Of a stretch of 64,000 bases of DNA, positions 5,573-23,288 are shown one piece after another; position 1 is the first letter of the stretch, and each line of letters begins with the position of its first letter. Position numbers and translations under genes: made by a program. Origin of the DNA: Pukyongiella litopenaei (GTDB taxonomy: Bacteria > Pseudomonadota > Alphaproteobacteria > Rhodobacterales > Rhodobacteraceae). Location: the NCBI RefSeq assembly GCF_003008555.2, contig NZ_CP043621.1:1-64000 (forward strand). Reading direction: 5' to 3'. Below the pieces are notes generated by a model. That model ran no database searches, had not been told where the DNA came from, and worked only from the letters and a program-made list of their open reading frames with translations.

Positions 5573-5580
5573 TGGGACGT

Positions 5581-6678
5581 CTACAGTCCTGCGGCTTTGG
5601 TCAGATTCACCCGGAACCGGTCGCGCCGGCGCTGGTAGCGGCGGGTCATCTCGGCCGAGGCGTGCCCGAGCTGTTTCTGGACGTAACGCTCATCGACTTC
5701 GGCCGAACTGGCGAGACCGGCGCGCAAGCTATGGCCGGAGAACAGCGCCAATCGTTCCTTCTCGGGCAACTCCGCACGGATGCCGCTCTTGAGTACGGTT
5801 TGCTTGATCAGCCGCGCGATGTGCTTGTCGGAGAGCCGAGCTTCCAATGCCTTCTTGCCGTCCCGCGAGGTGCGCACGAAGATGGGGCCGAAATCGATGC
5901 GGGCGAAGTGCAGCCATTGCCCAAGGGCGTGGACCGGGCAGGTCTGCTCACTGGAGCCGCGGCCGATCTCGACCTCGCGCCACCCCGTCTTGGCGTTGAG
6001 CGTGAGCAGGGCGCCACCGTCCAGGATCTCGATCCAGCCGCCGGAGTCCGGCGTGTCGTCCTTGCCGTGATCCAGGCCGACGATCTCGGAGCGGCGAAGC
6101 CCACCGGCATACCCCAGCAGCAGGATGGCCCGGTCGCGCAGTCCCCGCAGATCGTAGGGCAGGGTGGCCACCATCGCGAGGATGTCTTCCGGCAGGATCG
6201 CTTCCTTCTGCACCGGCGGGCGCGCGTGCTTGCGCTTGATCCCGGCCAGCACCGTGGCGATGTGCCGGTCCTTTCGATCCAGCGCGAACCCGCGTTGCGC
6301 GCAGGTCCAGGCGAGACCCGACAGGCGCCGCTCAATCGTACTGACCGAAAGGGCAGGGGATCCATTTGTCGGTGCGGCCAGGTCGGTGAGATAGAGCCCG
6401 ATCATCTCCGGTGACGGAGGCAGCGGTTCCGCACCCTTCATCCGACACCAGCGCGCGAAATGTGCCCAGTCCTTCGTATAGGCCTTGAGCGTGTTCTCCG
6501 AGGCCGCGGCGCGGGCATAGTCGCGAGCCGTGTCGACCAGGCGTTCGAGGCTGCCTGAGCCCGCGACGTGGGCGGGTAGGGAGATATCGTCGCTTTTGTC
6601 TTGATCTCTCTCGTCGACGCGAGCATCATCAAGCTCATCAGAGGGCGCTGACGTCGATTTCTCGGTCTCTGAGGGCAT
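5581..6678 (-). CDS. tyrosine recombinase/integrase next to repC
   Basis: Intact site-specific recombinase of 365 aa. An N-terminal SAM-like core-binding domain (about residues 45-150) precedes the catalytic domain, with R195 (GGLRRSE), H316-R319 (GHSLRAG), H339 (QLGHAS) and the nucleophile Y348 (MTRRYQRRR). The gene is tail to tail with repC, 8 bp apart. A lox-like inverted repeat 50 bp upstream of its start (6728-6760) is a plausible recombination site, so plasmid multimer resolution or integration of a plasmid module are the likely jobs. The N-terminal 40 residues are acidic and low in complexity. Confidence 0.9.
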   Translation of the reverse strand: MPSETEKSTSAPSDELDDARVDERDQDKSDDISLPAHVAGSGSLERLVDTARDYARAAASENTLKAYTKDWAHFARWCRMKGAEPLPPSPEMIGLYLTDLAAPTNGSPALSVSTIERRLSGLAWTCAQRGFALDRKDRHIATVLAGIKRKHARPPVQKEAILPEDILAMVATLPYDLRGLRDRAILLLGYAGGLRRSEIVGLDHGKDDTPDSGGWIEILDGGALLTLNAKTGWREVEIGRGSSEQTCPVHALGQWLHFARIDFGPIFVRTSRDGKKALEARLSDKHIARLIKQTVLKSGIRAELPEKERLALFSGHSLRAGLASSAEVDERYVQKQLGHASAEMTRRYQRRRDRFRVNLTKAAGL

Positions 6679-6727
6679 TTTCCAGTGAATCCGGCGATGA
6701 AATTGAACTGCTTCCCAGCCTATCTTT

Positions 6728-6760
6728 TCATGTCCGATAATGCAAACTTATTGGACATGA
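6728..6760. repeat. lox-like inverted repeat upstream of integrase
   Basis: Two 13-bp arms (TCATGTCCGATAA and TTATTGGACATGA, 12 of 13 complementary) around a 7-bp spacer TGCAAAC, directly upstream of the integrase start. This is the size and symmetry of a tyrosine-recombinase core site, where two recombinase monomers bind the arms and exchange strands in the spacer. It could alternatively be an operator for the integrase or for DUF1403. Confidence 0.5.
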
Positions 6761-6834
6761 CTCAAAGCTGTAAGGTGGGGCGGTTTTTACACTATATGGT
6801 AGGCAAAAGCGCCGTGGCAGGATAGTGTTGTGGC

Positions 6835-7614
6835 ATGACCTATCAGCCCACAGCTATCTCTGACGACTTGGACAGCCTACCCAAGCTACCCGCCTGGGTC
6901 ACCTCCGGACGCGCAGAAACCCTTGAAACTGTGGCCTTTCGGTCGGGAGCGGCGCTGACGGTGCTTGATCAACTTGTCTCGGGTCGGAGGCACGGTGTGC
7001 CGGTCAAACTGCTGGCCAACCGTTTGGCGCTGACCGCCGCGACGGCGACCTCGAAACTGGAAGGGCGGATGGCGCGGGAGGTGGACATTCGCGACGCGTA
7101 TCACCTGACGCCGCCCGGAGAGGCGCGCGGTCCGGATGGCGATCTGTTGGTGCTCTGGCGAGAGGCGGGTCGGATCCGCTTGACCGGACGCGATTGGCAG
7201 GCTGCGCTCGGCGGCCTTACCGGCCCGGACCCCGTGGCTGAAGCCGACAATTCGCTCAAGGCCGGCGTGGCTCGCGCCCGTACTCATGGACCATTGGCGG
7301 CATGTGTTTCAGTGATGCGCGCGGTTCTGGAGGTCGACGACCGGGCCGAGCGGATCGCCTGTCTGCTCTCCGATATCGTCCTGGCCCGCACGCTGGGTTG
7401 GCCTTCTCTTCTTCCGATCACGGCGCAGTATCTCACAAAAGCGATGTTGCGGGATCTGGTCGCGGAAGGGCAGGGGGCCGAGCTGGCGATTCAACGGCGC
7501 CTCCTCGAGTCTGTTGAAGACACAATCCGCGTTTTGCGTGACCTTGCAGTCCGCGCAGCAGCGCTCAATGAGATTGCCCCGAAGCTGCGGGTGTCATGGT
7601 CACGTAATTCGTGA
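6835..7614 (+). CDS. DUF1403 family protein
   Basis: 259 aa, recognised from overall pattern (TVAFRSGAALTVLDQLV, LLANRLALTAATATSKLEGR, IRDAYHLTPPGEARGPDGDLLVLWREA). DUF1403 proteins are found on alphaproteobacterial plasmids and genomic islands beside integrases; their function is not known. The sequence is helical, with a possible Fic/DUF-like helical domain at the start (KLEGRMAREVDIRDAYHLT) but no clear catalytic motif. It is divergent from the integrase, sharing the intergenic region with the inverted repeat. Its last codons abut the left end of the tni transposon, so the extreme C-terminus might have been altered by that insertion. Confidence 0.75.
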   Translation: MTYQPTAISDDLDSLPKLPAWVTSGRAETLETVAFRSGAALTVLDQLVSGRRHGVPVKLLANRLALTAATATSKLEGRMAREVDIRDAYHLTPPGEARGPDGDLLVLWREAGRIRLTGRDWQAALGGLTGPDPVAEADNSLKAGVARARTHGPLAACVSVMRAVLEVDDRAERIACLLSDIVLARTLGWPSLLPITAQYLTKAMLRDLVAEGQGAELAIQRRLLESVEDTIRVLRDLAVRAAALNEIAPKLRVSWSRNS

Positions 7615-7653
7615 GACTCACGGTTGATTTTCTCGTTTGTTTTCAGCGGCGAC

Positions 7654-7746
7654 TTGGTAAGGTTAACTTTAGGATGGTAAAGTTATTTATGAGATGGTAA
7701 CTTTAACCGTGAGACAGTTTCCACTGTGGATAACTTTAGATTGTGA
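7654..7746 (+). repeat. four repeated motifs at left end of tni module
   Basis: Motifs resembling TGGTAA-GTTAACTTTA start at 7654, 7674, 7694 and 7726 with about 20-32 bp spacing (cores TTGGTAAGGTTAACTTTA, ATGGTAAAGTTATTTATGA, ATGGTAACTTTAACCGTG, GTGGATAACTTTAGATT). Tn7- and Tn5053-family transposases bind several such sites at each end. The run is AT-rich against a GC-rich background. Confidence 0.55.
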
Positions 7747-9377
7747 CGGAAGAAGCAAGTGACGAAGCGCTAGAAAGGGCAGAGGCGCTAAGACCACTGT
7801 TATCACCGCTTGCTCGGGGTCAAAGTATCGGGCGGGCGGTGGAGGCGGCGGCGGCCGAGTTGAACATATCGCGCAGTACAGCTTGGCGTATTTTGAGCAT
7901 GTTGCGCGAGAACGATGGCCGGGCAAGTTCGCTTCTTCCCAAACGCAGCGGCCCCAAGCCCGGCTCCCTCCGTCTGCCAGCGCAAGTTGAAAGCATGATT
8001 GCCCGGGTCTTGCGTGAGCGATATCTGGTTCCGGAACGCCCGAGCTTTCGCAGGATTGTGGGCGAGATCCGCGCCGAGTGCGTTGCCAGAGGTTTTCAAC
8101 CGCCAGCACGGCAAACGATCAAGGCTCGCCTTGATGCCATGGATCAGCGCGAGGTGTTACGGAAGCGGAAAGGGGCGAAGGCCGCAAAACAAGTTTTCGA
8201 AGCGAGGGCAGGGAAGTTGGAGGTGGAACGGCCACTGGAAGTCGTCCAGATCGATCACACGTTGGCGGATATTATCCTAGTTGATCAGGTTGAGCGCAAA
8301 CCTCTAGCACGACCATGGCTGACACTCGCGATCGACGTCGCGACCCGTGTGGTACTGGGTGCCTATGTCACTTTCGACGCGCCATCGGTCTTGTCCATTT
8401 GCCTTTGCCTTGACCACTGTGTGCGGCCGAAGTCCGTCCGGACACCGAGTTCGCTTAAGCAACTCTATTGGCCGACAGCCGGGATCCCACAGGCCATCCA
8501 TGTCGATAACGGGCGGGACTTTCGCAGTGATGCCTTCCGGTCGGCTTGCGCGGAATGGGGCATCGCGATCAAGTACCGGCCGCCGGGCCGTGTGCATATT
8601 GGTGGGCATATCGAGCGGCTGATCGGCACGACGATGGGTGCCGTGCATGTATTGCCGGGAACGACGCAATCCTCGCCAAAAGACAAAGGCGAGTATGATA
8701 GCGCTGCCAAGGCCTCAATGACGCTGGACGAGTTCGAGGACTGGCTGCAGCTGGAGATTTGTCGGTATCATAATACACGCCACAGCGGATTGAAGCGGAC
8801 CCCGCTGGCCGCCTGGGCCGATCTTGGGGGCGACGATGCCGGCCGACAGGTCGTGGATACAGATGCCTTCCGGATCAGTTTCCTTCCTTCCGAACGCCGC
8901 CAACTTGGCAGGACCGGGATCAACCTGTTTTCCATCGGTTATTGGAGCGACGCCTTCGCGCCCATGATCGGTCGCGGGGCAGGGAAGGTTACGGTCAAGT
9001 ACGACCCGCGAGATATGTCCCGGATATGGGTAGTAACCGACGATGGTCGAACAATTGCCGCGCGCTACAAGGATCTTTCTCGCCCCAAAGTTTCCCTTTG
9101 GGAGTCGAGGCGCGCCAGTGCAATTTTCCATGAGCGTCACGGCGGTAGGATATCGGAGGCAATTCTTTTCGGGATCATCGAAGAACAGCGGCGTATCGCC
9201 CACGCGGCGCGGCAACGAACGCTTGCGACGCGCCTGGACGAAGAACGCAAAGCACGCCAGCCAAACGACAAACCGAAGCGTGATCCGTCCCGTGAGATGT
9301 TTGCGATTGATACCAGTAACCCCAATCTCCCAACTTACCCGATAGATGATTTTGATGGACCTCGACGAAAGACTTGA
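7743..9377 (+). CDS. tniA: TniA-like DDE transposase (Mu/Tn7-TnsB superfamily)
   Basis: 544 aa with a retroviral-integrase (rve) core: D171 (VVQIDHT), D255 (IHVDNGRDF) and E291 (GGHIERLIG), then a Mu-transposase C-terminal beta-barrel (SERRQLGRTGINLFSIGYWSDAFAPMIGRG). N-terminal helix-turn-helix around NISRSTAWRILSML. Start is GTG 7743, just after the end repeats; the region upstream has no better start. It performs strand transfer with TniB and TniQ. The end overlaps tniB by 32 bp. Confidence 0.9.
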   Translation: MTEEASDEALERAEALRPLLSPLARGQSIGRAVEAAAAELNISRSTAWRILSMLRENDGRASSLLPKRSGPKPGSLRLPAQVESMIARVLRERYLVPERPSFRRIVGEIRAECVARGFQPPARQTIKARLDAMDQREVLRKRKGAKAAKQVFEARAGKLEVERPLEVVQIDHTLADIILVDQVERKPLARPWLTLAIDVATRVVLGAYVTFDAPSVLSICLCLDHCVRPKSVRTPSSLKQLYWPTAGIPQAIHVDNGRDFRSDAFRSACAEWGIAIKYRPPGRVHIGGHIERLIGTTMGAVHVLPGTTQSSPKDKGEYDSAAKASMTLDEFEDWLQLEICRYHNTRHSGLKRTPLAAWADLGGDDAGRQVVDTDAFRISFLPSERRQLGRTGINLFSIGYWSDAFAPMIGRGAGKVTVKYDPRDMSRIWVVTDDGRTIAARYKDLSRPKVSLWESRRASAIFHERHGGRISEAILFGIIEEQRRIAHAARQRTLATRLDEERKARQPNDKPKRDPSREMFAIDTSNPNLPTYPIDDFDGPRRKT

Positions 9378-10209
9378 TCTCATTCGCAGCGATCGTTGGA
9401 TCGCCTTTGATCGCGCAACCATTGTTCTCAACAGATTGATATCCCTGATGGAAATGCCTCGGCAGTCCAGAATGCCGGGCCTCATGGTTTATGGCAGCTC
9501 TGGCATCGGCAAGACCATGATCGCCAAGCGGATGGAGAGCCTCTACCCGAGCAACTATCGCTCAGACCTCGGGGTGACGCGCACGCCGATCCTACTCCTT
9601 CAGGCGCCACCCGCACCAGACGAGCGGCGGTTCTATCAACATATCCTGGCGTCGATCGGCGCGCCCATGTGGGGCCGTCACACCATCTCCGAACTGGAGG
9701 TGCGGGCTCTCAGCCATTTGCGCGGAATGGACTTGAAGATGATCATGATCGATGAGGTCCATAACCTCCTTGCCGGAAGCTATCGGGAGCAACGCCGGTT
9801 CCTGAACATGCTGCGCTTCCTTTCCAACGATCTGTGCGCATCACTTGTCGTCTTTGGTGTCAATGAAGCTGCTGAGGCGGTTCGCGGTGACGAGCAACTT
9901 GCGCGACGGCTGGACGAACATTTTCTGCCACTCTGGGATGACGATGTTGAGTTTTCCCGGCTGGTCCAGACTCTGATTGCTGCCATGCAGTTGGAGCGCG
10001 GATCTGGTCTGAGCGTCCAGTCTCTACGTACCATTCTCGGTATTACAGGCGGCGTCACATCGCGTGTGTTCACGATGATAAAGGCTCTTGCCATCGACGC
10101 CATTGAGACTGGCGAAGAGCGGATAACTGACGAGGCCGTCCAATCCTGGCAGCCTATCTGGGCCAAACATAGTTGGACCGTTCGGAACCAACCACAGCCG
10201 GCATTTTAG
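9346..10209 (+). CDS. tniB: TniB-like AAA+ ATPase
   Basis: 287 aa ATP-dependent target regulator of the TnsC/TniB/IstB type. Walker A GSSGIGKT (residues 50-57), Walker B MIMIDE (about 132-137), followed by a sensor-1-like region VVFGVNEA. It would form a filament or ring on target DNA and activate TniA. ATG 9346 overlaps tniA; ATG 9355 is an alternative start. Confidence 0.9.
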   Translation: MILMDLDERLDLIRSDRWIAFDRATIVLNRLISLMEMPRQSRMPGLMVYGSSGIGKTMIAKRMESLYPSNYRSDLGVTRTPILLLQAPPAPDERRFYQHILASIGAPMWGRHTISELEVRALSHLRGMDLKMIMIDEVHNLLAGSYREQRRFLNMLRFLSNDLCASLVVFGVNEAAEAVRGDEQLARRLDEHFLPLWDDDVEFSRLVQTLIAAMQLERGSGLSVQSLRTILGITGGVTSRVFTMIKALAIDAIETGEERITDEAVQSWQPIWAKHSWTVRNQPQPAF

Positions 10210-11168
10210 TGATCCACAAACCTCTGCCGAGGCGTCCGGCACCTTATCAGGACGAACTGCTGTCAAGCTGGATCGCCCGTCTGGCAGACGCTAACTATTG
10301 TTCACTACCAGAGCTCTGCCGATATCTGGGGCTTGGTCAAGAACGTCCGCCGGAAACGCAATCAGATTTGGCTGGCGTGAACCTCGACAGGTTCTGCACA
10401 TTGTTACGTCTGCCTTCTGCGGAGCTCGGTCGCATGTTGCTCAGGCGACGGGCTGAATTCCCGATTGAATGCATTTCGTGGTCGGATTTTCAGCACTGTC
10501 CCGCGTGCACTCACAAGGTACCCGGGGTATCTTTGCGCCATTGGCGCTACGCGTGGTCGTTGCAATGCGAAGTCTGCGGATCCGAGTTGTCGCCATTGGG
10601 CCGTGATCCAGCGGCACATGTGAACCTGCCCACCCGGCTCCGCACCCGCGCCAAAGAGGGCGCGAAGCAGCTGATGCTCGCCAATCGACGCGGGGACCGC
10701 CATGCTGGTCGACGCATGGATTTGACGCTGCAAGTCGCTGGCGTGCTCGCGCCAGAACCCCGTCACGGTGCGCTCTTTTCCCAGAACCGAATAGATCGCT
10801 TCAAAACCCTCGCCGCCATCAATCTCGGAATGACCCGACCTTTGCTCGCAGCCGCGTTGACGATGAAAAGCGATAGGGTTGGCGAGACCAAGCTTCGGAT
10901 TGCCTTCCCGCACAAGCGGAAAGTTGTGGATCGCCTTTCACGACTTGCTGAAAGCTTACCACGGCAGAGGCCTCGAGAGGGCGGGGGACCCAAAAATCAA
11001 TCGCCTACGAACTACGCGGGTACGACCCAAGCACCAAGGCAGGAATATCTTCAGGCGGCGCGGAAGGCGATTGATCAGCTTGGGGAAAACGCAGAATGGT
11101 CCGATTTGCTCAATTGCGCGGCGAAGCTCCTCGAAAGTGCATGCCAATCCCATATGGATATCTCATGA
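10209..11168 (+). CDS. tniQ: TniQ-like target-selection protein
   Basis: TniQ family, about 319 aa. The family N-terminus PRRPAPYQDELLSSWIARLA is followed by a zinc-binding pair HCPAC...LQCEVC (C97, C100, C120, C123). I chose GTG 10209, which overlaps the tniB stop (TAGTG), rather than a TTG 36 bp upstream, because the family signature begins right after it. In Tn5053 and Tn7 relatives TniQ/TnsD directs target choice. The C-terminal 120 residues are basic and less conserved. Confidence 0.88.
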   Translation: MIHKPLPRRPAPYQDELLSSWIARLADANYCSLPELCRYLGLGQERPPETQSDLAGVNLDRFCTLLRLPSAELGRMLLRRRAEFPIECISWSDFQHCPACTHKVPGVSLRHWRYAWSLQCEVCGSELSPLGRDPAAHVNLPTRLRTRAKEGAKQLMLANRRGDRHAGRRMDLTLQVAGVLAPEPRHGALFSQNRIDRFKTLAAINLGMTRPLLAAALTMKSDRVGETKLRIAFPHKRKVVDRLSRLAESLPRQRPREGGGPKNQSPTNYAGTTQAPRQEYLQAARKAIDQLGENAEWSDLLNCAAKLLESACQSHMDIS

Positions 11169-11330
11169 ATAGCCTTACCAAATATCGAAAATGGATGGCC
11201 ATTACGAAAGAGTCTCAAGAATACCGTGACCATGACAGCACCTTTGAACGACACCATCCGCCCGACCTCATCGACAAATCACGCGGACTGATAGACCATC
11301 ACGCCAAACTTTGCGACAGAGCCAAATGCG

Positions 11331-11774
11331 GTGCGGGGACTTCTGCAATTGGAGGGATTTTCAGGGTCGCCGCTACTCTTCGAGCGACCTGCCGATACAC
11401 TGCGTTGGTACCTTTGGCACGGCAAAGTGATGACCGCCGCGACAATCCTCAAAGTTCTTCAGATCGATTGCGATCGTCTGCACGCCGAAACCCGAGAATT
11501 GCGAGAAGCGGCCAGGCGCGTCAGAGCTCGGTGTCAGGACCTCTATTCCTACCTTGCGAACAACTTCGACGCGCTCGTAGACTACGGCCATCGACACCGG
11601 AATGGCCTCGCAGTTTCGTCGTCCCGGGCAGAAGGCTGTGTCGATGATATCGGCAACACCCGCATGGGGAAACGCCGCCGAATGAGATGGTCACCGCGGG
11701 GCGCGCATCGGGTTGCCGTCACTCGGGCCGCTGTGCTTGACGGAAGACTAGGCGTCTCAAAGCGGGCCGCTTGA
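11331..11774 (+). pseudogene. ISKra4-like transposase, 3' remnant
   Basis: The frame ends with a stretch typical of the C-terminus of ISKra4-family transposases: VSSSRAEGCVDDIGN then GKRRRMRWSPRGAHRV, preceded by a helical segment DTLRWYLWHGKV. Only about 145 residues remain and the catalytic core is missing, so this is a decayed copy. The upstream 160 bp after tniQ contain no recognisable gene. The IS probably destroyed the 3' end of the gene facing it (11775-12091). Confidence 0.6.
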
Positions 11775-12091
11775 CCACCAGCTTTTGCCCACTCCCTTTT
11801 GTCGCCGACGTTACGGTTCGCCCGTGGACAGGCTGCTTCAACGCGATCTCGCAGGACATTGTAGATGGCAACAAATCGACCATCGGTGTTGTCCGACTTT
11901 GTCTGACGCAGGTGATAGACGAGCACTTCCGACGGTACATAGTCGTCGTGCCTTCGATCCCGTATGGCAGCCCTCGCCAACAGGTCATCGAAGGGCCAGC
12001 GAAGACTTTCCGCGATGAAGTCGATTGTCGGGGGGCGTCGCGTGTATAGCTCGCCGCTACCTTTGCGCTTTCGTAGTGGCTTGATGTTCAT
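11775..12091 (-). pseudogene. hypothetical gene, 3' end lost to IS remnant
   Basis: About 100 residues beginning MNIKPLRKRKGSGELY resemble a conserved hypothetical protein of proteobacterial mobile islands, with a central block YVPSEVLVYHLRQTKSDNTDGRF. The family normally continues well past this block, but here the resemblance stops close to the ISKra4 remnant and the frame runs on through nonsense. ATG 12091 has GAGGCGAG upstream. Function unknown. Confidence 0.5.
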
Positions 12092-12166
12092 TTTGCTCAA
12101 TTACTCGCCTCAATTCAGATTGTTGCCTTTTTTCTCTTTTGTTGTGGTGAGTTTCCATCATCGCAA

Positions 12167-13030
12167 CTACCAGTCAATCTCGAACCGCTCTTTCATCTCT
12201 TCGGTGCGCGCCCAAGGGTCACCTGGCAATTGGTCCACCAAATCGGCGAATATGCGTTGGATCGCACCAAAGGTTGATTTCTCTGTCAGACTCTCGGCTT
12301 CTGCCGCGGGAAGCAGGGGGCGCATATCTAACAGAAGCCGAGGGTTCGCCATCTTGGCAAACATGCGTTGCTGCGCTTGTGCACGCGAGATCTTCTGCTC
12401 CGATAATGCAAGGTAGCCCAGAAACATTTCGACCAGTCTGTTCAAGTCGATCCCCTCGAAGACCTCGAGACCATGGGCCAGGTCGTAGAGATCTCGCCCT
12501 TTGTCACGTTGTAGCAGGGCCCGAAACTTGGTCGCCAACATTTCTTCCCTGGTGAAGGTCGGGATCGCGGTGCGCGCTGCGAACCATGGATTTTCAATCT
12601 CGAATGGCAACTCTAGTGCACCATCAAAGGCGTCAATCTCGCGTGTGTTGATTTCAAGTTTGAGGCGTATGAGTACCCCACTCCCATCCTCCGCCTCAAC
12701 TCTGAAGAGGAACTTTGGCGCAACGGGGCTCTGGTCAAATTTGGCCTGTCCTAGCCACGGTTCTAGAACGACGCGAAGCTGATCGAGGATGGGCCCGATG
12801 GGGCCGTTGGTTGTACGGACTAGATCGATGTCCTCGGAATAGCGAAGCGGCTTCGGGAAGTGCAGCTTGTTGAGAGCTGTTCCCCCGCGAAAGCGCAACT
12901 CCTTTCGAAGCATCTCATCGGAGAAGATGTCGACAAGCGCGCGACTGATGATCAGATCCTGTTCGATCTGACGTTGCTCGGCCCATGGTGCAATTGCTCC
13001 CCACGCGACTATGTTCTGCGACGGGATCAT
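12167..13030 (-). CDS. abiEii: AbiEii-type nucleotidyltransferase toxin
   Basis: 287 aa member of the AbiEii/MenT nucleotidyltransferase toxin family. Signature RGGTALNK (about residues 48-55, the GG-T/S motif) and D67-x-D69 (SEDIDLV) supply the metal-binding carboxylates. A later motif TREEMLATKFRALLQRDKGRDLYDL is typical of the family. Type IV toxin-antitoxin and abortive-infection activity is established for AbiE relatives, which modify tRNA or nucleotides. It overlaps the upstream antitoxin gene by 4 bp (ATGA), so the two are co-translated. Confidence 0.9.
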   Translation of the reverse strand: MIPSQNIVAWGAIAPWAEQRQIEQDLIISRALVDIFSDEMLRKELRFRGGTALNKLHFPKPLRYSEDIDLVRTTNGPIGPILDQLRVVLEPWLGQAKFDQSPVAPKFLFRVEAEDGSGVLIRLKLEINTREIDAFDGALELPFEIENPWFAARTAIPTFTREEMLATKFRALLQRDKGRDLYDLAHGLEVFEGIDLNRLVEMFLGYLALSEQKISRAQAQQRMFAKMANPRLLLDMRPLLPAAEAESLTEKSTFGAIQRIFADLVDQLPGDPWARTEEMKERFEIDW

Positions 13031-13854
13031 TCATCGACCTCCGGATTGCGGCGAATGATGACACGCCAACGAGGATTGCGGTCGATTGGATCGAACGCGA
13101 AGTCTGGGTCTCGTGCTTCTGCACGATCAAGCTCAGTCCAGTTGCTCTGGCTGCGAGCCAACAGTACATGATGCATTGCTTCTGCCTTGGCGCCATGACC
13201 AAGCCAGTCCAGCAAGTATCCCAGCCGCTGCACCACTGGCCGCTCTACGGTTCGGGATAGGTGAGCCAGTTGCTCTTCGTCAATTTTCGGACCGAGGTCC
13301 GAGAGCACCGTGGCGACATTGTCGATGCCGGCAGATGCTTGGGGGTAGCGGAGGAGGTCGAGAGCGGTCAGAGCCGGTGACGAAAGTTGCATAGAGCCAG
13401 TGTCCGTTTTGCGCTTTTCTACGCCTTCGGCGACCTCCGAAATGTCCTTGCGGTAGTAGAAGACAATAAGATTACGACCGGCTCGAATTTTCGGAAACCG
13501 CTTTGACGTCACGACCTGGAATTCCATAACGGCCTGGTGGGTCGCGCCATGAAGCTCTGCAGCCTTGAGGAGGCCGACATAGTAGTTTTGTCCCTCGTGT
13601 CCCATAAGAGCGTCGATGTACCAGGATGGTGGTGGTGCTCCCCACGTTGCATACTGCGGAGGGACGGCAACGTAGAAACCCTGCCGAGGGCTCAACAAGG
13701 TCTTACGACGTTGTAGCCGTTCTGCAGCGTCTAGGAATGCGCCGTGGCTCACGTTGAGGGCGCTCTCTGCTTCGTCAGCCGTGAACACGGATCGGCCAGC
13801 CGACAGCAGCTCGGTGATGTAGCTAGATAGGGCAGATCGCTGATCATGAACCAT
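13027..13854 (-). CDS. abiEi: AbiEi-type antitoxin/repressor
   Basis: Partner of the AbiEii toxin. An N-terminal winged helix (about residues 1-60, FTADEAESALNVSHGAFLDAAERLQ) and the AbiEi C-terminal domain (YYVGLLKAAELHGATHQAVMEFQVV, typical). I chose ATG 13854 (MVHDQRSALSSY), because upstream codons to 13932 run through two operator-like repeats and a promoter. AbiEi proteins bind repeats in their own promoter and repress it; the two matching repeats at 13861-13879 and 13923-13941 fit. Confidence 0.85.
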   Translation of the reverse strand: MVHDQRSALSSYITELLSAGRSVFTADEAESALNVSHGAFLDAAERLQRRKTLLSPRQGFYVAVPPQYATWGAPPPSWYIDALMGHEGQNYYVGLLKAAELHGATHQAVMEFQVVTSKRFPKIRAGRNLIVFYYRKDISEVAEGVEKRKTDTGSMQLSSPALTALDLLRYPQASAGIDNVATVLSDLGPKIDEEQLAHLSRTVERPVVQRLGYLLDWLGHGAKAEAMHHVLLARSQSNWTELDRAEARDPDFAFDPIDRNPRWRVIIRRNPEVDE

Positions 13855-13860
13855 GTTTGT

Positions 13861-13879
13861 ATGTCCGCGCTTTGAGCGG
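13861..13879. promoter_or_regulatory. abiE operator repeat 1
   Basis: ATGTCCGCGCTTTGAGCGG, matching the repeat at 13923-13941 in 15 of 19 positions; each contains a CCGC...GCGG dyad. It lies just before the chosen abiEi start. Confidence 0.55.
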
Positions 13880-13882
13880 AAA

Positions 13883-13911
13883 ATCTTACATGATTTGCCA
13901 GCTCTGAGCAA
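13883..13911 (-). promoter_or_regulatory. abiE promoter
   Basis: On the minus strand TTGCTC, 17 bp, TAAGAT sits between the two operator repeats, placing the transcript start about 20 nt before ATG 13854. Repressor binding to both repeats would cover it. Confidence 0.5.
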
Positions 13912-13922
13912 TACGTGCTCAA

Positions 13923-13941
13923 ATGTCCGCACCTAAAGCGG
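13923..13941. promoter_or_regulatory. abiE operator repeat 2
   Basis: ATGTCCGCACCTAAAGCGG, direct repeat of the site at 13861, 62 bp away, i.e. about six helical turns so both sites face the same side of the DNA. Confidence 0.55.
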
Positions 13942-14152
13942 AATCTCTAGCATGGTTGCATCAACAACCAAAGCCAAGTGACCTTCAGGGAGCTGCCTCG
14001 ACCGACACCTAGAAGAAGATGGGCCAGATAGTCAGCTCCCTGCGTCGTCCTGAGTATCACTGCTTTGAGGGGTGATTATCACTGGAACTAAGTGGCGAAA
14101 GATCGCAGAATTTGTAACCACTTGTATTCATGAATTCTAATGGCGAAGGATA

Positions 14153-15331
14153 ATGCGTCTACTTGCTACAGCCGACATTCACCTAGGTTCTCCGATCAGG
14201 TCGGTCGCGCTGCGAAACTCTGATCTTGGCGATCGTTTGAAGCAGGCGAGTCGTGACACGTTCGCACGGATCGTCGATCTGGCGGTGACCGAGAACGTGG
14301 ATGCGCTCGTTTTGGCGGGGGACATTTTCGACAATGGATACCCCGATTTGCGGTCTCGCGCCTTCCTGATCGCACAGTTGTCACGGGCCGCGGAGGCAGG
14401 TGTGCCAACGGTGTTGGTCCGAGGTAACCACGATGCGTTGCTCGACCACCGTGCCTACGGAGAGCTTGGCCCTAACATCCATCTTCTGCACAAGGAAATG
14501 CCAACGGTCGAAATCGGCGATGTCGCCTTTCACGGGCTTTCGTACGATGCAGCTCATGTCGGAAAGAGCTTTCTTCCCGACTACCCAAAATCGGTGCCGG
14601 ACAAGCGAAATGTCGGCCTTATGCATACTTCGCTCGATGGGGCTCCCGGTCATGACCCGTATGCGCCCTGCGCCACAGCCGACCTGATGGCGCATGGCTT
14701 CGACCTTTGGTGCCTCGGTCACATACATGCGCCGTTCGAGCGTTGGGATGGCCCCGTCTTGGCGGTCATGCCGGGCATCCCGCAGCCCCGCCATTTCGGT
14801 GAGCGCCAAGGCGGGACAGTTACGATTGTCGAAATGGGAGACGGCGCACCCATAGTCGAGCGGCGCGACGTCTCGCGGTTGGGCTTCGCCGAGTTGGAAT
14901 TGGACCTCCAAGACTCCGGCGATCAGCAGGATATGGTTGCTACCCTTAGAGACGGGTTCTTATCGGCGCAGCACCCGAATAAGGATGCCGCCGTCCGGCT
15001 GAGGGCAACGAGCTCGAGGCAGAGCGGCCCGTTTGTCACGGAGCTCGCAGCGGAAGTGCTGGACGACGTTGATCGGGTATTTCTGGATAAGGTCGAGGTC
15101 GTGGTGCCCTCCCGCTCGCTTAACACCGAGACAGATGACCTTGTTCGCCTGATGCGTACGGAAATGGCGGAAGATGGTTTCAGGCAAGCCGCCCTGCAAC
15201 AACTTGATGAGGTCCGAACCGCGCTCCCGAATGAAATCGCTGCAGAACTGGAAGATCACGCTCTGGATGCATTGCTCGAGGACGCTATCGCCGAGGTGAT
15301 GCTTGCGCTTCATGCGGAGCGAGCGGAATGA
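14153..15331 (+). CDS. YhaO/SbcD-like metallophosphoesterase
   Basis: 392 aa DNA-repair exonuclease subunit-like protein. Calcineurin-type metal motifs: ADIH (7-10), GDIFD (56-60), GNHD (91-94), MHTS and GHIH further on, all present, so it should be an active manganese-dependent nuclease. It overlaps the downstream ATPase by 4 bp (ATGA), the standard arrangement of SbcD/SbcC and YhaO/YhaN pairs. The location among AbiE and transposon genes suggests a defence rather than housekeeping role, but that is inference. Confidence 0.88.
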   Translation: MRLLATADIHLGSPIRSVALRNSDLGDRLKQASRDTFARIVDLAVTENVDALVLAGDIFDNGYPDLRSRAFLIAQLSRAAEAGVPTVLVRGNHDALLDHRAYGELGPNIHLLHKEMPTVEIGDVAFHGLSYDAAHVGKSFLPDYPKSVPDKRNVGLMHTSLDGAPGHDPYAPCATADLMAHGFDLWCLGHIHAPFERWDGPVLAVMPGIPQPRHFGERQGGTVTIVEMGDGAPIVERRDVSRLGFAELELDLQDSGDQQDMVATLRDGFLSAQHPNKDAAVRLRATSSRQSGPFVTELAAEVLDDVDRVFLDKVEVVVPSRSLNTETDDLVRLMRTEMAEDGFRQAALQQLDEVRTALPNEIAAELEDHALDALLEDAIAEVMLALHAERAE

Positions 15332-18300
15332 GGCTGAATGCGCTGCATCTCATCCGCTATGGCAACTTCGAAGACGCTGAGATCGTTTTTCCGGTGCCCG
15401 CGCGTGACACCCCTGATGTAACCGTCGTTTACGGGCCAAACGAGGCCGGAAAGTCGACCGCATTTCATGCATTACTAGACATTTTCTTTGGCTTCCGGGC
15501 TGGTACGCATCCCTACGCATTCCGGTTCGAGCGAAGCGACTTGCTTGTGGGGGCGGACCTTGACCTGCCCGGCCGCGGGGCAACTGTCCTGAGGCGCAAC
15601 AGCAAGCGGTCGCAATCCTTGCTGGACACGCACAATCGGCCGGTCGCCGACGCGATCCTCGCGAGCGCCTTGCACGGGCTGACGCGGGAGGAATTTGAGG
15701 AGCGGTTCTCGCTGGATGAAAGAGGTCTACGGGACGGCGGCGAACGGATTGCCAGTGCGAAGGGCGATCTCGGTCAGCTTTTGCATGCGGGCGTTTCGGG
15801 TCTGACCGGTATTTCCGAGACGCTGAATGCACTGTTGGAGCGTGCCGACAAATTCCACAAAAAACATGGCCGTGCCACGGAGCTGAAACAGGCGAACGAC
15901 CGCTTGAAACAGATCAGCCGCGAGCTTCGAGCCGATCGGCTGACCTCGGAACGGGAACGAATTCTTCGTCAGGACCGTGAACAGAAGACTGCGCTGTTCG
16001 AGGCGGAAAACTTGGCGCTGGTCACCGCGCAAAAACGTCGTCTTGCCGCTACGGCGGCCAGTACGTGGTTCGACCGAACCGAGGAGATGGAACGACTCGC
16101 CGAGGCCCTGAAGGACTACCCGAGTGGCCCGGACCAGCCCCGGGATGCGGCCGAGCGCGTGGCGGCACTGGTGGAGAAAGTCTCCTCGCTCGAGGCCAGA
16201 ATCACCGAGGCAGACGATGACGTCGCCGGCCTGGATCAGATCATTGAGGAGAACCCCGCTGACACGCTCGCCCCGGCGCTGAACGCCGAGTTGGAACGCC
16301 TGGATCAGATGACGGTGGATGGCGCCCCGTTGATGGACCGCGCCACGACGGCGCGCGCGGATCTCGACCGTCGCACTGCAGACCGGGATGCTCTCGCCAT
16401 GGAGATATCGACGGCGCAGGCGCGGCTTTCGGTGTCCGGCACTGCGGTGGCGGATCTCGTCCTCGAGACGGCTGAGTTGGAAGAGATCGCCGAGGCTGTC
16501 GAGGCATGCCGCATGGCCAGCGAGGCGTTGAACACGGCGAAGGCCGTCGCCGATGCAGCGAGAGCGCGAGAGGGCGAGGCGCCTAGCGAACCGCAAGATC
16601 TGACGCTCCTGCGCGACGCATTCGAGGCCTGGAGGCCGGTTTCGGACCTGACCACGTTCGAAACAGAGCGGGAACAAACCCTCGCGCGCCTCACCAAGGC
16701 TGCCGCCGACTTACCTGCGGACTGGACTGGCTTGGTCGACGCCGGCCTACCCGCGCCCGAAACGCTTGATAAAGCCGCGCGGGAGTGGTCGGACTTGTCC
16801 TCGGACATCGCCGCAGCCAAGAGCAACGTCGAGGAACGCTCGAAGGAATTGGAGGATGCCACAGCCGATGTCTCGGCTTTGCAGGCCGCGCCCGAAGCGG
16901 TGGATGTCGCAACCACCGAGGAAACCCGCCGCCACCGCGACCTGGCTTGGACACGCCACCGCGACGACCTGTCCGATCCCTCCGCCGACCAATTCGAGGC
17001 GGCGATGCGCGCGGACGACAGCGCACGCGCCCATTTCATGGCGGGGGCGGAGATCCGCCTGCGGCGACTTGAAGCGCAGAGGCGGGAAAAGACAGCGAAG
17101 GCGCGCTTCGAAACCGCTGAGGCGCGGCTGGCAGACCTGATCGATCGCCGCGAGAGTTTGTCAGAGGTTCATTCAAGGCTATCAGCAAGGCTCGGTCTGG
17201 AAGCAGGCACCACTCCAGCGGCTTTCGGACCACGCCACCAGACACTTTCAGCGGCGGCCAACGCCGCTGCCGATCACTCGAACGCGCAAGCAGCGTTGGA
17301 TACCCGCCGCCACCGCGAGGTAGCCTTGCGCACCGAACTGATGGAAGCGGCCCGCGCCTTGGATCTCGGCGTGGGCAAGGGCGATATGGCGGCCCGGGTG
17401 CAAAGGGTTCTGACGCTGGAAGAAAGTGATCGCAAGGCCTGGAGTAGATGGAGGGACAGCCAGAAGGCCATCGACAAACTGGACGACGACGCACTGGTCA
17501 AGAAGGACGATCTAAAGCGGGCCGAGCTCGAGTTCGAACGGTTGACTTCCTCTCTGCCGCTACCGGATCGCTCGGTCGAGGGGGTCCGGACGGCTCTTCC
17601 ACACTTGCGAAACCTACTTCGGCTGCACACCGATCATCAGCGTCTCGATGAGCGAATCGAGACACTGCAGCGGGCGATTTCGGCCTTGTCAGAGGGGGCC
17701 GAACGGCTGGCGAAGATTCTTGGTGCGACAGAGGATCAGGGCGGGCGGGAACCCATTCAGACCATCGACCAGGCGCGCATACGTGTGGCGGCAGCAACGC
17801 GCGCCGACGAAAAACGTGGCGACGCCGAGTCGCGCAGGGACAAGCTCATGGCGACACGACATCGCCACAATACCGATCTTGAGACCGCAAGGAACGAGCT
17901 AGATGACCGTTTCAAGGGTCAGGGAGACGATAGTCTAGCGCCGAGCGATCGGATAGCACGGCTCGTTGAGCGGGACCGGCTTCGCGCCGAGCACCTGACT
18001 GCGGATCGGGATAGGCAGCAGGCCATCGTTGGCGTCGACGAGGACCTCTTCGGCGAGGAACTCGGCCTGATGCCGGACGCCTCTCGCGGACCTGTTCTCG
18101 AACAGCAGGTGCAAGACGCGCAAGAGAGCCGCGACTCGGCGCGCGATGCAGCACGTGAGGCCGAGCGTTTGTACCGCGAAGCATTCGACGCCGCCGACCG
18201 TAGCGATCTGGTCACCGAACAGGCGACGTTACTGGAGGCGCTCCGCAATGGCGGTCGCCAGGCGGTCGTTGCGCGGCTGGGTGTGCTGGCGGCCCGCGGC

Positions 18301-18735
18301 GCACTTCGTCGTCTGGCGGAGGAACGACGCAGCGACATGCTGCGCGATGTCGAGGCGGCCTTTGTGACAATGACCAAACCCAAGTGGCGCGGCGTCGAGG
18401 TTTGGAGCCAGGTCGAAGGCGAAAAGCTGGTCGGCATCGACGCCGACGGGGACAAGGTTCCGGTCGATAAGATGTCGACGGGGACTATGGGCCAGCTCTA
18501 CTTCGCCTTGCGGCTAGCGGGGTATCGCAGCTTTGCGCGTGACCTCGGACCCCTTCCGATGATCCTCGACGACATCATGGAAACTTTCGACGACACACGG
18601 GCCCGGGCCGCATTGCAACTGTGCGCCGAGATAGGGGCAAGTGGACAGGCAATCCTTTTCACGCACCACGCGCACCTGGTTGAGATGGCCCAGACCGCAG
18701 TTCCGGGGGTGTCCATTGTAGATATGCCAGCCTGA
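15328..18735 (+). CDS. YhaN/SbcC-like coiled-coil ATPase
   Basis: 1135 aa SMC/Rad50-like protein. Walker A GPNEAGKST at residues 36-44; long heptad-rich coiled coil over most of the middle (about 180-950); C-terminal signature VDKMSTGTMGQ and Walker B LPMILDDIMETFD (about 1075-1087). The N-terminal pattern after Walker A (LLDIFFGFRAGTHPYAFRFERSDLLVGADL) is that of YhaN rather than classic SbcC. With the metallophosphoesterase it would form an ATP-controlled nuclease acting on DNA ends or hairpins. Confidence 0.88.
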   Translation: MRLNALHLIRYGNFEDAEIVFPVPARDTPDVTVVYGPNEAGKSTAFHALLDIFFGFRAGTHPYAFRFERSDLLVGADLDLPGRGATVLRRNSKRSQSLLDTHNRPVADAILASALHGLTREEFEERFSLDERGLRDGGERIASAKGDLGQLLHAGVSGLTGISETLNALLERADKFHKKHGRATELKQANDRLKQISRELRADRLTSERERILRQDREQKTALFEAENLALVTAQKRRLAATAASTWFDRTEEMERLAEALKDYPSGPDQPRDAAERVAALVEKVSSLEARITEADDDVAGLDQIIEENPADTLAPALNAELERLDQMTVDGAPLMDRATTARADLDRRTADRDALAMEISTAQARLSVSGTAVADLVLETAELEEIAEAVEACRMASEALNTAKAVADAARAREGEAPSEPQDLTLLRDAFEAWRPVSDLTTFETEREQTLARLTKAAADLPADWTGLVDAGLPAPETLDKAAREWSDLSSDIAAAKSNVEERSKELEDATADVSALQAAPEAVDVATTEETRRHRDLAWTRHRDDLSDPSADQFEAAMRADDSARAHFMAGAEIRLRRLEAQRREKTAKARFETAEARLADLIDRRESLSEVHSRLSARLGLEAGTTPAAFGPRHQTLSAAANAAADHSNAQAALDTRRHREVALRTELMEAARALDLGVGKGDMAARVQRVLTLEESDRKAWSRWRDSQKAIDKLDDDALVKKDDLKRAELEFERLTSSLPLPDRSVEGVRTALPHLRNLLRLHTDHQRLDERIETLQRAISALSEGAERLAKILGATEDQGGREPIQTIDQARIRVAAATRADEKRGDAESRRDKLMATRHRHNTDLETARNELDDRFKGQGDDSLAPSDRIARLVERDRLRAEHLTADRDRQQAIVGVDEDLFGEELGLMPDASRGPVLEQQVQDAQESRDSARDAAREAERLYREAFDAADRSDLVTEQATLLEALRNGGRQAVVARLGVLAARGALRRLAEERRSDMLRDVEAAFVTMTKPKWRGVEVWSQVEGEKLVGIDADGDKVPVDKMSTGTMGQLYFALRLAGYRSFARDLGPLPMILDDIMETFDDTRARAALQLCAEIGASGQAILFTHHAHLVEMAQTAVPGVSIVDMPA

Positions 18736-18993
18736 CCAACCGAGCCCTCAATTCTTGGTTGACCACCCACTTGTCGCCGGACCGGACTGCCTGATGGACC
18801 GGCGGTGCCGATGCCACACTCCGCTCATTTCACCTTTGTGCGGAGAATGGCTTCGAGCCGACAACGATAATGGAGAATGCAGTCCGGCGACGTCGGAACA
18901 GCCCGAACGCTGAGGTGGCCAGTACCAAGTACGGCGCTAGGCTGTCATTATGCGGTTCTTCGTCGAAAGACGCTTCTCGGATGGAGGAAGAGA

Positions 18994-20103
18994 GTGAGCT
19001 TTTTGTTCTGGTGGATCGTTGGCGGTGTCGTCCTCGTCATTCTCGGAAGCTGGGCTTGGAAGCCGAGTAAGGCCACCCGACAACACCGGCATCACGATGA
19101 GACGCGGCCATCAACCAAAGTGGCAAAACCCAAGGGGCCTTCCCGCGCCAAGCAACGCGGATTGCGGGCTCCGGCTTCGATGGGTTGGGAAGTCCATGAG
19201 TTTGGCGACAATGCGCCCGCGGGCGATTGGGTACAGTGGAAGATTGGAAGCGGATGGTTCGACGTCCAGGGTCACTTCAATCGCAAGGAGACAGTAAGAG
19301 AGTTTCTTCGACTGGCAACCCAAGCCGACGAGCGGGGCGAGCCTTTCGGGGCATTGCTTAACCCCGAGCCTGACAACAAGTATGACAAGAACGCCATGCA
19401 GGTGATCGGCATCCTTGGTCCGCACGAAGCGCCGACGTCACGGGTCTTCTTGGGCTATGTGCCCGCCGATGTGGCGGCCGAGGTCGCGAGCTTTCCAGAG
19501 GGGATGCCAATTGCCGTGGAACTGAAGAAGTCCCGGATCGGAGAGGTCGACGTCATCTTGAACTGCGCAGGTCTGTGGCCACCGGCCAAGCAGCGTCGGG
19601 ATCTGGGTTTTGAGAAAGCGCCATCGAAACCTGTCACTAGAGTGGATGAGAATGCACTCGAGAAGCTCGATGAATTGATCGAGCGCATGAACGCGATGCC
19701 TGCCCTCACAGCGAAGCAGGCGGCCGCGAGGCAGAAAACGAATAGGATCGATTTCATCGAGGACGACGAGGCAACGATTCAGCGCAAGTTGGCCGAACTG
19801 GAGGCCGACAGATCACCTTCGGTTCTCGAGGACCCTGGCGGCATCAAACAATACGACAACGACCTCGCCAAGCAGGTGGAGATCGTCAGCGAGGGACTCG
19901 ATGGATGGGAACGCTCCGGCATGACACCCGCGCCGTACTATTCCTACCGGATTGCTGTGATCCTTTCGAAGCAGAAAGAAGTTGAGCCCGAGAAGGCTTT
20001 CCTAGCCGCCTGGTGCAGGCATTTCTCCGAAGTTGGTATCGGGCAGCGCTATGCGGACTTGGTCGAGCGGGCGCGTAAGAAGGGTGCCATACCACCGGCA
20101 TGA
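18994..20103 (+). CDS. membrane-anchored HIRAN-domain protein
   Basis: About 369 aa. One N-terminal transmembrane segment (residues 2-20, FLFWWIVGGVVLVILGSW) is followed by a basic linker and a HIRAN-like domain (about 85-170: WFDVQGHFNRKETV, ALLNPEPDNKYDKNAMQVI, VFLGYVPADVAAEVA). HIRAN domains recognise 3' DNA ends or damaged DNA. The C-terminal half is helical and unassigned. I chose GTG 18994 because GGAGG sits 8-12 bp upstream and the membrane segment starts at once. It follows the YhaO/YhaN pair by 258 bp in the same direction, which suggests a functional link. Confidence 0.7.
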   Translation: MSFLFWWIVGGVVLVILGSWAWKPSKATRQHRHHDETRPSTKVAKPKGPSRAKQRGLRAPASMGWEVHEFGDNAPAGDWVQWKIGSGWFDVQGHFNRKETVREFLRLATQADERGEPFGALLNPEPDNKYDKNAMQVIGILGPHEAPTSRVFLGYVPADVAAEVASFPEGMPIAVELKKSRIGEVDVILNCAGLWPPAKQRRDLGFEKAPSKPVTRVDENALEKLDELIERMNAMPALTAKQAAARQKTNRIDFIEDDEATIQRKLAELEADRSPSVLEDPGGIKQYDNDLAKQVEIVSEGLDGWERSGMTPAPYYSYRIAVILSKQKEVEPEKAFLAAWCRHFSEVGIGQRYADLVERARKKGAIPPA

Positions 20104-20358
20104 AAATTGGTAGAGGTGGTTTGGCGAGCCCGTGGTAGCGGAGGTATCTGTCGGTCGGAGCGGTAACGAGAATGGCCCGCCCCTATCGTTACCTGGCTCT
20201 TCAAGCTATAGACGTTGCGGAAATTCGCTGCATTTGGCACGAACTGGTAGATTGCGGGTCTTTGCTGCCGTTGCCCGAAGGACTGCCTACCGCTCTTGCA
20301 AGACCAGACGCACGCCGAGGGTACAATAGATGCTGCCGACGACCGCGCCGTTGAGTTC

Positions 20359-20536: not shown

Positions 20537-20666
20537 TGTCAATCGGCATCCAATGTTGACCCCTTATCGGCGTCCAAAATTGACCCCCTTAGTGCTGAGC
20601 TGGCCCGGAGCTGCGTAGTCTCCAATTAACGCAGCGGCGCCGGGCCAGCGTGGTAGCAGCCTGGTA

Positions 20667-21395
20667 TTACGCTCGGTTTTTGAAGCGCCAGCTTTCGTTG
20701 CCGGTCTCGACGATCTCGCAGTGATGCGTGAGACGGTCGAGGAGTGCGGTGGTCATCTTGGCGTCGCCAAAGACGGTCGGCCATTCGCCGAATGCCAGGT
20801 TTGTCGTGACGATTACCGAGGTGCGTTCGTAGAGCTTGCTGATCAGGTGGAACAACAGCTGGCCGCCGGTCTGGGCGAAGGGTAGATAACCGAGTTCATC
20901 GAGGATCAGGAAGTCGAGCCGAGAGATCAGGTCGGCGGTGCGGCCCTGCCGCTCGGCGCGGGCTTCTGCATCGAGCTTGTTGACCAGATCGACGACATTG
21001 AAGAACCGGCCCCGGCGGCCAGCCCGGATGCAGGCCCGGGCGACGCTGACGGCGAGGTGGGTCTTGCCGGTTCCGGTGCCGCCGATCAGCACGAGGTTGC
21101 GCTGATGGTCCAGGAAGTCTCCGGTGGCCAGATCGCGGATCAGGGTCTCGTTGACCTCTGTCGCCTCGAAGTCGAACTCCTCCAGTTCCTTGGCGAGCGG
21201 CAGCTTGGCGATGGTCATCTGGTATTTGATCGATCGCGCCTGCTTCTCGCTGATCTCGGCGGTCAGCAAATCCCCGATGATCTGTTGCGGCTCATGCTGG
21301 CGCTTCAGCGCCGTGCCGATGATCTCGTCATAAGCTGTCCTCATGCCGTAGAGCTTTAGCTGGCCCATTGCGTCCAGCACTTCTGAGCGTTCCAT
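20667..21395 (-). CDS. istB: IstB helper ATPase of IS21
   Basis: About 242 aa AAA+ ATPase that regulates IstA. Walker [10 protein letters not shown] and Walker [13 protein letters not shown] are intact. ATG 21395 ([10 protein letters not shown]) has AGGAGA upstream and overlaps the istA end; ATG 21419 is less likely. Confidence 0.93.
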
Positions 21396-22893
21396 CCGTT
21401 TGTCTCCTAAGGCTGTCATATCGGTTGCAATCGGCTTTCGGCTCGCAGGCCAGCCGCAACGCGTCCGGGGTTGCGATTGTCAGGGGCGGTGGCGGCTCGC
21501 GGTGGCGGGCCAGGATGTTCAGCACGACACCCGCCGAATGGACGTTGTGGGACAGGGCCTCGGCACAGGCAGCATCGACGGCGTCCAGGCCATCGATGAG
21601 CACGGCGGCAAGGATCTCGACAATCTGCCGGTCACCGCCGGGCTGGCGTTCCAGCTTGCGCTGCACGCGGCGGATCGCGACCGGCAATTCCCATGTCTTG
21701 AACGGCGCGCCGTTGCGTAGAGCGCCGGGCTTGCGGGCCAGAACGGGTATGTAATGCAGGGGATCGTAGACGGTGTTGTTGCGCCCGAAGGCACGCGCGT
21801 GGCGCCCGACGATCCGACCCTCCTGCCAGCATTCCAGCCGATCTGCGTAGGCTCTGATCTCGACCGGCCGGCCAACCGCACGGGCATCGACCGAGTAACG
21901 GTTCTTGTCGAAGCGCACGAGGCAGGTCTTGGACACAGATGCCGGAACCGCGTTGAATCCGTCGAAGGGGCCGACATAAGGGATCAGGCTTGGGCGCTCT
22001 TCCTCAAACACCTCCCAGATCGTTTTGTCCCGCATCTCCGGGTGCGTGTTTGTCCGGGCGTAGGCCACGCAGCGGTCCTCCAGCCAGCCATTCAACTCGG
22101 CATAGGACTTGAACTTGGGGCGCGGCACGAAGAACCGCCGCCGCAGGACACCGACCTGGTTCTCGACCTGACCCTTCTCCCAGCCCGATGCCGGGGTGCA
22201 AGCCACCGGGTCGACAAGGTAGTGCCCGCACATTTGCTGGAACCGGCGGTTATAGGCCCGATCCTTTCCCACGAAGATCGCATCCACCGCCGTCTTCATG
22301 TTGTCGTAGATGCCCCGGGCGCAAGCGCCGCCGAAGAAGGCGAACGCGTTGTCATGCGCGTCGAACACCATCTCTTGCGTCTCGCGCGGATAGGCACGCA
22401 CGTATGGCATCCGGCTGTGGCAGAGACGGACATGGGCGACTTTGACCGTCGTGGTCACGCCATCGATCAGAACGACTTCATGGCTCCAGTCGAACTGGTA
22501 GGCTTCGCCGGGATCGAAGCTCAGCGGCACATAGGCAGAGGCCGAGGCCTCCTGTGTCGCCTTCGACCAACTGGCCGCGTAGCGCCGCACAGCATCGTAA
22601 CCGCCGCCGTAGCCGCGGTTGCGAAGCTCCTCGTAAATGCGGATGAGCGTCAGGCGTTCCCTCTTGGGCTGCCGGGCGTTCTCGGCCAGCATCGCGTCCA
22701 GCTCCGAACGCCAGGGATCGATCTTCGGGCGGGGCTGCGTCGCGCGGTCATAGGTGAACTCGGTTGCACCCGATCGGATGACCTTGCGAACGGTATTACG
22801 CGATACCCGAAGCTCGCGGCAGATCTGCTTGATCGGTTTGCCTTCGATGAAATGCGCACGCCTGATCTTCGCTATCGTCTCCACAACCAACAT
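21328..22893 (-). CDS. istA: IstA transposase of IS21
   Basis: 521 aa. N-terminal helix-turn-helix ([20 protein letters not shown]), rve-type catalytic core with [18 protein letters not shown] and [10 protein letters not shown] supplying D, D, E. Full length with no frameshift, so the element looks active. Confidence 0.93.
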
Positions 22894-23008
22894 CCCCTGA
22901 CCGCTCCCTCATGCCTTTTGAGGAAGCTTCTGATCACAATTGTCAGGGGGGTCACTTTTGGACGCCGATCACCCCATAACGGGGGTCAATTTTGCATGCC
23001 GATCCACA

Positions 23009-23288
23009 TCCCGCGATTGCGGCACGGCTCAATAACCACCAGATCGCCAAGCCACAGCCTTCGGGATCGTGTATGAATTTCGAAGCGCTTGCCGTAGGAG
23101 GCGAATCCCACGACCTCCGTGCCGATTTCGGCCACGAGGCAATCGAACCATCGGTCCTCGCCGAATCCGAACCGAAGCAATGCGCCCGTCTCGGCGCCCG
23201 GATCGAGATCGGCCACATGGCTGGCCAGTTCACGCGCCAATTGCGCGATGGCCGGAACATCTGCCTCAAGTGCGGAGCGGATACGCAT
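23009..23288 (-). pseudogene. GNAT acetyltransferase, N-terminal part (split by IS21)
   Basis: Starts MRIRSALEADVPAIAQLARE, a GNAT N-terminus, and runs to WLGDLVVIEPCRNRG, the acetyl-CoA-binding region, where the IS21 element enters. ATG 23288 overlaps the end of the upstream flavoprotein gene by 23 bp, so the intact gene was last in that operon. Confidence 0.85.

Follow-up and report, generated by a model that had tools for sequence, protein, structure and literature searches.

The locus considered here raises the question of whether an SbcCD-like nuclease pair, YhaO/YhaN, and the membrane-anchored HIRAN protein encoded behind it constitute a single defence module, as a preliminary description of the sequence had suggested. 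It lies in a 64,000-nucleotide stretch of a Pukyongiella litopenaei contig, referred to below as the window. On sequence evidence, the nuclease pair appears to be a credible candidate defence system, with the HIRAN protein only sometimes its companion; the gene anatomy, motifs, block mobility, purifying selection and defence neighbourhood are the established part of this reading. Found repeatedly next to Gabija, Shango, Rosmerta or AbiE, the mobile YhaO/YhaN clade offers a concrete candidate for an SbcCD-like defence nuclease, and one that can be cloned. The membrane HIRAN protein, for its part, provides a way to ask whether DNA ends are sensed at the membrane in bacteria.

Genomic setting

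The window contig is 67,363 bp long and belongs to a 4.26-Mb genome whose relatives are Rhodobacterales. It carries a RepC gene (4283–5572) and a ParA-like gene (1536–2999), which point most probably to a repABC plasmid. The proposed island with AbiE and transposon genes is indeed present: to the left of YhaO/YhaN, model matches place an AbiEii toxin gene (12167–13030) and an AbiEi antitoxin gene (13027–13932), both on the minus strand, which form a neighbouring defence/toxin–antitoxin system (12167–13932) outside the block described below, and Tni-type transposition genes follow further out. On the other side, an IS21-family element (istA/istB, 20537–23012) begins ~0.36 kb right of the block edge.

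The YhaO/YhaN pair

YhaO (14153–15331, plus strand) is a 392-residue Mre11/SbcD-like calcineurin phosphoesterase, and YhaN (15328–18735, plus strand), which overlaps it by 4 bp, is a Rad50-like AAA_27 ATPase of 1135 residues. Closer inspection upholds the earlier assignment of an SbcCD-like pair with intact catalytic motifs. YhaO matches PF00149 in profile searches (E 2e-16), has its nearest solved structures in Mre11/SbcD, and retains all five phosphoesterase motifs, namely DIH (residue 8), GDIFD (56), GNHD (91), HT (158) and GHIH (189). YhaN matches PF13514 (AAA_27; E 1e-55, 188.6 bits against a cut-off of 22), and carries a Walker A motif (GPNEAGKS, residue 36), a signature motif (STGTMG, 1050), a Walker B motif (MILDD, 1078) and FTHH (1111). 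A CxxC zinc hook is absent from YhaN, the whole protein containing only two cysteines, and the SbcD model TIGR00619 scores YhaO at 65.9 bits, below its cut-off of 77.65, so that the pair is not SbcCD proper. PADLOC gave no strong model match for the pair or for the HIRAN protein. The dN/dS ratio is ~0.2 for the YhaO, YhaN and HIRAN genes alike, which indicates purifying selection on each, and the three genes therefore represent more than chance.

The membrane-anchored HIRAN protein

Profile, alignment and motif evidence define a 369-residue protein (18994–20103, plus strand) with a membrane helix at residues ~2–22, a HIRAN core at ~120–166 and a C-terminal domain at ~284–367. Its gene starts at the GTG at 18994: both this codon and the Shine-Dalgarno sequence GGAGGAAG are kept in six homologues, and a longer reading frame from the ATG at 18877 was rejected as an artefact on account of this conservation. 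With this start, the 258-bp spacing first given for the gap behind YhaN (18736–18993) is correct; within it, positions ~18751–18894 are swapped in a related locus (L007) for a shorter, dissimilar stretch.

The initial view of a protein with one transmembrane helix and a HIRAN-like domain also stands, the domain being probably a divergent HIRAN domain. There is a single N-terminal hydrophobic helix, the best 19-residue window beginning at residue 1 with a mean Kyte-Doolittle value of 2.1, and residues 23–60 carry a net charge of +10; given these ten net positive charges after the helix, the positive-inside rule suggests that the body of the protein probably faces the cytoplasm. PF08797 matches the window protein with an E-value of 0.0011 and 19.2 bits, under the gathering score of 24.7, and matches the same region of a 33%-identical homologue (L063) at 32.2 bits, over that cut-off. 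Alignment of the core to human HLTF reaches an E-value of only 0.22, with the motif PxNxxDKNAxxV found in both proteins, and alignment of the homologues shows that the membrane helix and HIRAN core are conserved among them. Structure prediction of the protein was unusable (pLDDT 40).

The C-terminal domain comprises ~85 residues without a Pfam match. The same domain ends HIRAN-less proteins (L011, 9245–10746; L015, 9895–11049; L065, 220–1308), which are located on a plasmid, a prophage-like contig and one further contig. A WGR-domain gene lies 3′ of the protein in L011, and also 3′ of the HIRAN gene in L010.

A mobile block in three genera

The three genes lie within a 6.1-kb block (14043–20175), its sharp ends defined by blastn, that is common to L007 and L009/L013 amid different flanks. 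The left edge falls at 14043 in L007 or 14082 in L009, the right edge at 20175 (20188 in L010), and the right part of the block also occurs in L008 and L010. The complete block is thus found in three genera (the window, L007 and L009, the last from Actibacterium) at ~92–94% nucleotide identity with unrelated flanks. Each block gene is 91–95% identical at the nucleotide level, as against 75–82% for the core genes gyrA and rpoB in the same genome set, compared as rpoB between G000 and G240 (82%) and as gyrA between G000 and G063 (75%), G000 and G395, and G395 and G063. Synonymous difference is 0.48 for rpoB and 0.57 for gyrA, and 0.10–0.22 for the block genes. High identity inside unrelated flanks, set against these core-gene values, shows that the block is horizontally mobile. 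The L007 copy is a mosaic, its YhaN being nearest to the window copy and its HIRAN gene nearest to that of L009; this history, together with the gap before the HIRAN gene, would fit a separate transcription unit for HIRAN.

Scans for promoters and terminators within the block gave nothing above chance. Putative transposon ends at the block edges (CATTATCG-like, with an inverted appearance) were discarded, their similarity not being significant (p ~0.2 and ~0.7), and a genome-wide count of the CATTATCG-like motif gave 14 matches against 12 for the control, showing no enrichment. A short motif, AACGATAATGG, occurs at 18860–18873 before the HIRAN gene, at 20162–20175 on the right block edge and inverted at 20180–20193, and is not enriched across the genome. 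The block edge in L008 is a near-perfect palindrome, GATAATGGGTCCCATTATC. Each of the three genomes with an intact copy of the block has a DUF1403 gene upstream of it (window, 6835–7614; L087, 2213–3175; L088, 1567–2451), as if marking a common insertion region.

Distribution of the pair and the HIRAN gene

YhaN was found in 43 of the 292 Rhodobacterales genomes sampled, and relatives occur in ~20 plasmid records. Chromosomal housekeeping status, named at the outset as a reading that would defeat the module idea, does not describe the pair, given this frequency, the repABC-type contig and the mobile block. Among the loci of the best 30 YhaN matches in Rhodobacterales, HIRAN adjoins YhaN only where YhaN is at least 91% identical (three of the 30), and it is absent within ~17 kb of the next YhaN relatives, at 48–60% identity.

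Six close HIRAN genes are available, and three of these (window, L007 and L009) accompany an intact YhaO/YhaN. The others comprise L010, in which YhaO is deleted and only YhaN residues 655–824 are left, partly fused in front of HIRAN; L008, where YhaN is absent from the 4.0-Mb assembly and HIRAN lies at a contig edge, making an assembly gap possible; and L062, a 79%-identical homologue whose neighbours are a WYL regulator and PDC-S46, a PADLOC candidate ATPase. In genome G395 these L062 genes, together with one for a tyrosine integrase, make up an island (5233–15530) that borders chromosomal sbcD/sbcC-like genes. Two distant HIRAN relatives (L063 and L014) do not have YhaO/YhaN alongside. The viral contigs searched contained no relative of the HIRAN protein; beyond Rhodobacterales, a single match, to the C-terminal domain, was obtained among 385 genomes of the class, and 299 genomes of the phylum gave no match except the window's own.

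The suggested co-conservation therefore holds in part: one block recurs in three genera, but half of the close HIRAN homologues are without an intact pair. Since YhaN relatives occur without HIRAN, and HIRAN genes without an intact pair, HIRAN is best described as a facultative companion.

Defence neighbourhood

The neighbours of YhaO/YhaN repeatedly include defence genes. Directly upstream of YhaO in L009 is a gene matching RmrT of Rosmerta, a tested anti-phage toxin–antitoxin family (PMC10440598), with Gabija past a Fic-like gene, and the L010 locus, on a Roseovarius indicus plasmid, has model matches to SngB and SngC of Shango, a tested anti-phage system (PMC10250203). On Phaeobacter and Leisingera plasmids, an annotated AAA ATPase/UvrD helicase pair stops 67 bp before YhaO, and in L049, which has the same arrangement, this pair scores as GajA and GajB. 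The 67-bp spacing between UvrD/GajB and YhaO (L082, 3861–12580; L049) recurs in many plasmid records; a supersystem of Gabija and YhaO/YhaN is conceivable. Plasmids of P. inhibens P88, Pseudosulfitobacter and Yoonia carry, before YhaO, annotated TerB/ATPase/helicase genes resembling Shango and DUF4297/HerA genes, the latter supported by model matches as well. GajB and a HipA-family gene are found upstream of the pair in Sulfitobacter; in L048, within a region of type IV secretion genes, the PADLOC candidate PDC-S06 adjoins YhaO; and in L007 the neighbours include E1/JAB and patatin proteins. Immediately before HIRAN, L010 has multiubiquitin, ThiF and DUF6527 genes (12595–16194), which may form a bacterial ubiquitin-like operon.

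With Gabija, Shango, Rosmerta, DUF4297/HerA and AbiE nearby, the view that the pair is accessory, spreads horizontally and sits within defence islands is well founded. Raw adjacency of defence genes to YhaO/YhaN is strong but not formal evidence, and in part reflects how islands are built.

Interpretation

The reading favoured here, which has about an even chance of being right, is that YhaO/YhaN is a mobile Mre11–Rad50-like nuclease of defence islands, partnered facultatively by a membrane HIRAN protein that is itself separately mobile, the anti-phage role, DNA-end recognition and partnership being what we infer. By analogy with its family, YhaN would probably sense DNA ends or hairpins through its ATPase and coiled coil, and may then license cleavage or resection of phage or plasmid DNA by YhaO, the presumed targets being the ends or hairpins that foreign DNA presents on entry or during replication. 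The HIRAN gene may have become fixed behind the pair in one Rhodobacterales lineage as a helper, whose membrane-bound product would retain DNA at the membrane as it enters or once it is broken, concentrating ends at the site of entry. Where HIRAN domains have been characterised, they bind DNA ends (PMC8262856).

A serious contender, somewhat short of an even chance, is that HIRAN is an independent defence-island gene hitch-hiking with YhaO/YhaN, which would work alone. The YhaN relatives without HIRAN fit this, as do the absence of YhaN from the L008 assembly, the other neighbours of HIRAN in L062, its solitary occurrence in L063 and L014, and the differing nearest relatives of YhaN and HIRAN in L007; L010, moreover, retains HIRAN, whose dN/dS against the window copy is low, despite deletion of YhaO and most of YhaN. 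Yet the same three-gene order persists in three genera with different flanks, and the arrangement outlived recombination in L007. The block common to three genera, with the conserved membrane helix and HIRAN core, would also suit an obligate three-gene, membrane-tethered system of DNA-end sensing in defence. This is improbable, as YhaO/YhaN and HIRAN are apart more often than together; an obligate module is not supported, given the absence of HIRAN beside the 48–60%-identical YhaN relatives and the close HIRAN homologues of L010, L008 and L062 without an intact pair. A looser form of three-component immunity, in which the membrane HIRAN protein would capture entering phage or plasmid DNA ends and pass them to the Mre11–Rad50-like nuclease, or to other ATPase partners such as PDC-S46 in L062, is likewise given little credence.

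An accessory role in DNA repair or plasmid maintenance, with SbcCD-like processing of hairpins or ends in place of immunity, is unlikely, if worth keeping in view. It draws on the similarity of YhaO to Mre11/SbcD, on the frequency of YhaO/YhaN on plasmids, and on the pair being the only SbcCD-like one found in the window genome: a genome-wide search returned no second SbcD match and no second above-cut-off AAA_27 match, and a repair role is possible for that reason. The pair is, however, absent from most sampled Rhodobacterales, and its recurrent position next to Gabija, Shango, Rosmerta or AbiE also tells against this role.

Comparison with known systems

In Bacillus subtilis and its relatives, YhaO/YhaN is a metallophosphoesterase plus a Pfam AAA_27 protein. 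The pair described here is alike in gene arrangement and domain content, but belongs to a defence island carried by a plasmid-like contig, with a membrane HIRAN gene behind it. The literature searched, of which coverage was partial, yielded no paper on a phage-defence role for YhaO/YhaN. Mre11–Rad50-type complexes are repair machines, and SbcCD/Mre11–Rad50 shares with the present pair the phosphoesterase, the Rad50-like ATPase and the Mre11 motifs; it differs in that YhaN here is without the zinc hook and YhaO falls below the TIGR00619 cut-off. Mre11–Rad50 recognises and processes DNA ends and hairpins, and Lamassu, which is Rad50-like, acts as a sensor in immunity (PMC10586767). Its LmuB resembles YhaN in being a Rad50/SMC-like ATPase for which end or hairpin sensing is proposed, but YhaN scores only 28.9 bits to an LmuB model, outside the ATPase head, and no LmuA/LmuC match was found among the scanned neighbours of YhaO/YhaN.

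Human HLTF and HipL/HipN are HIRAN proteins (PMC8262856), and the PxNxxDKNAxxV core of HLTF is present here too, the HLTF tyrosine before the Asp being Y, F or H. Unlike these, the present protein is membrane-anchored, has another C-terminal domain, and is without a helicase or kinase. Gabija, Shango and Rosmerta occupy the same islands as YhaO/YhaN, often immediately adjacent to it, as separate genes with models of their own.
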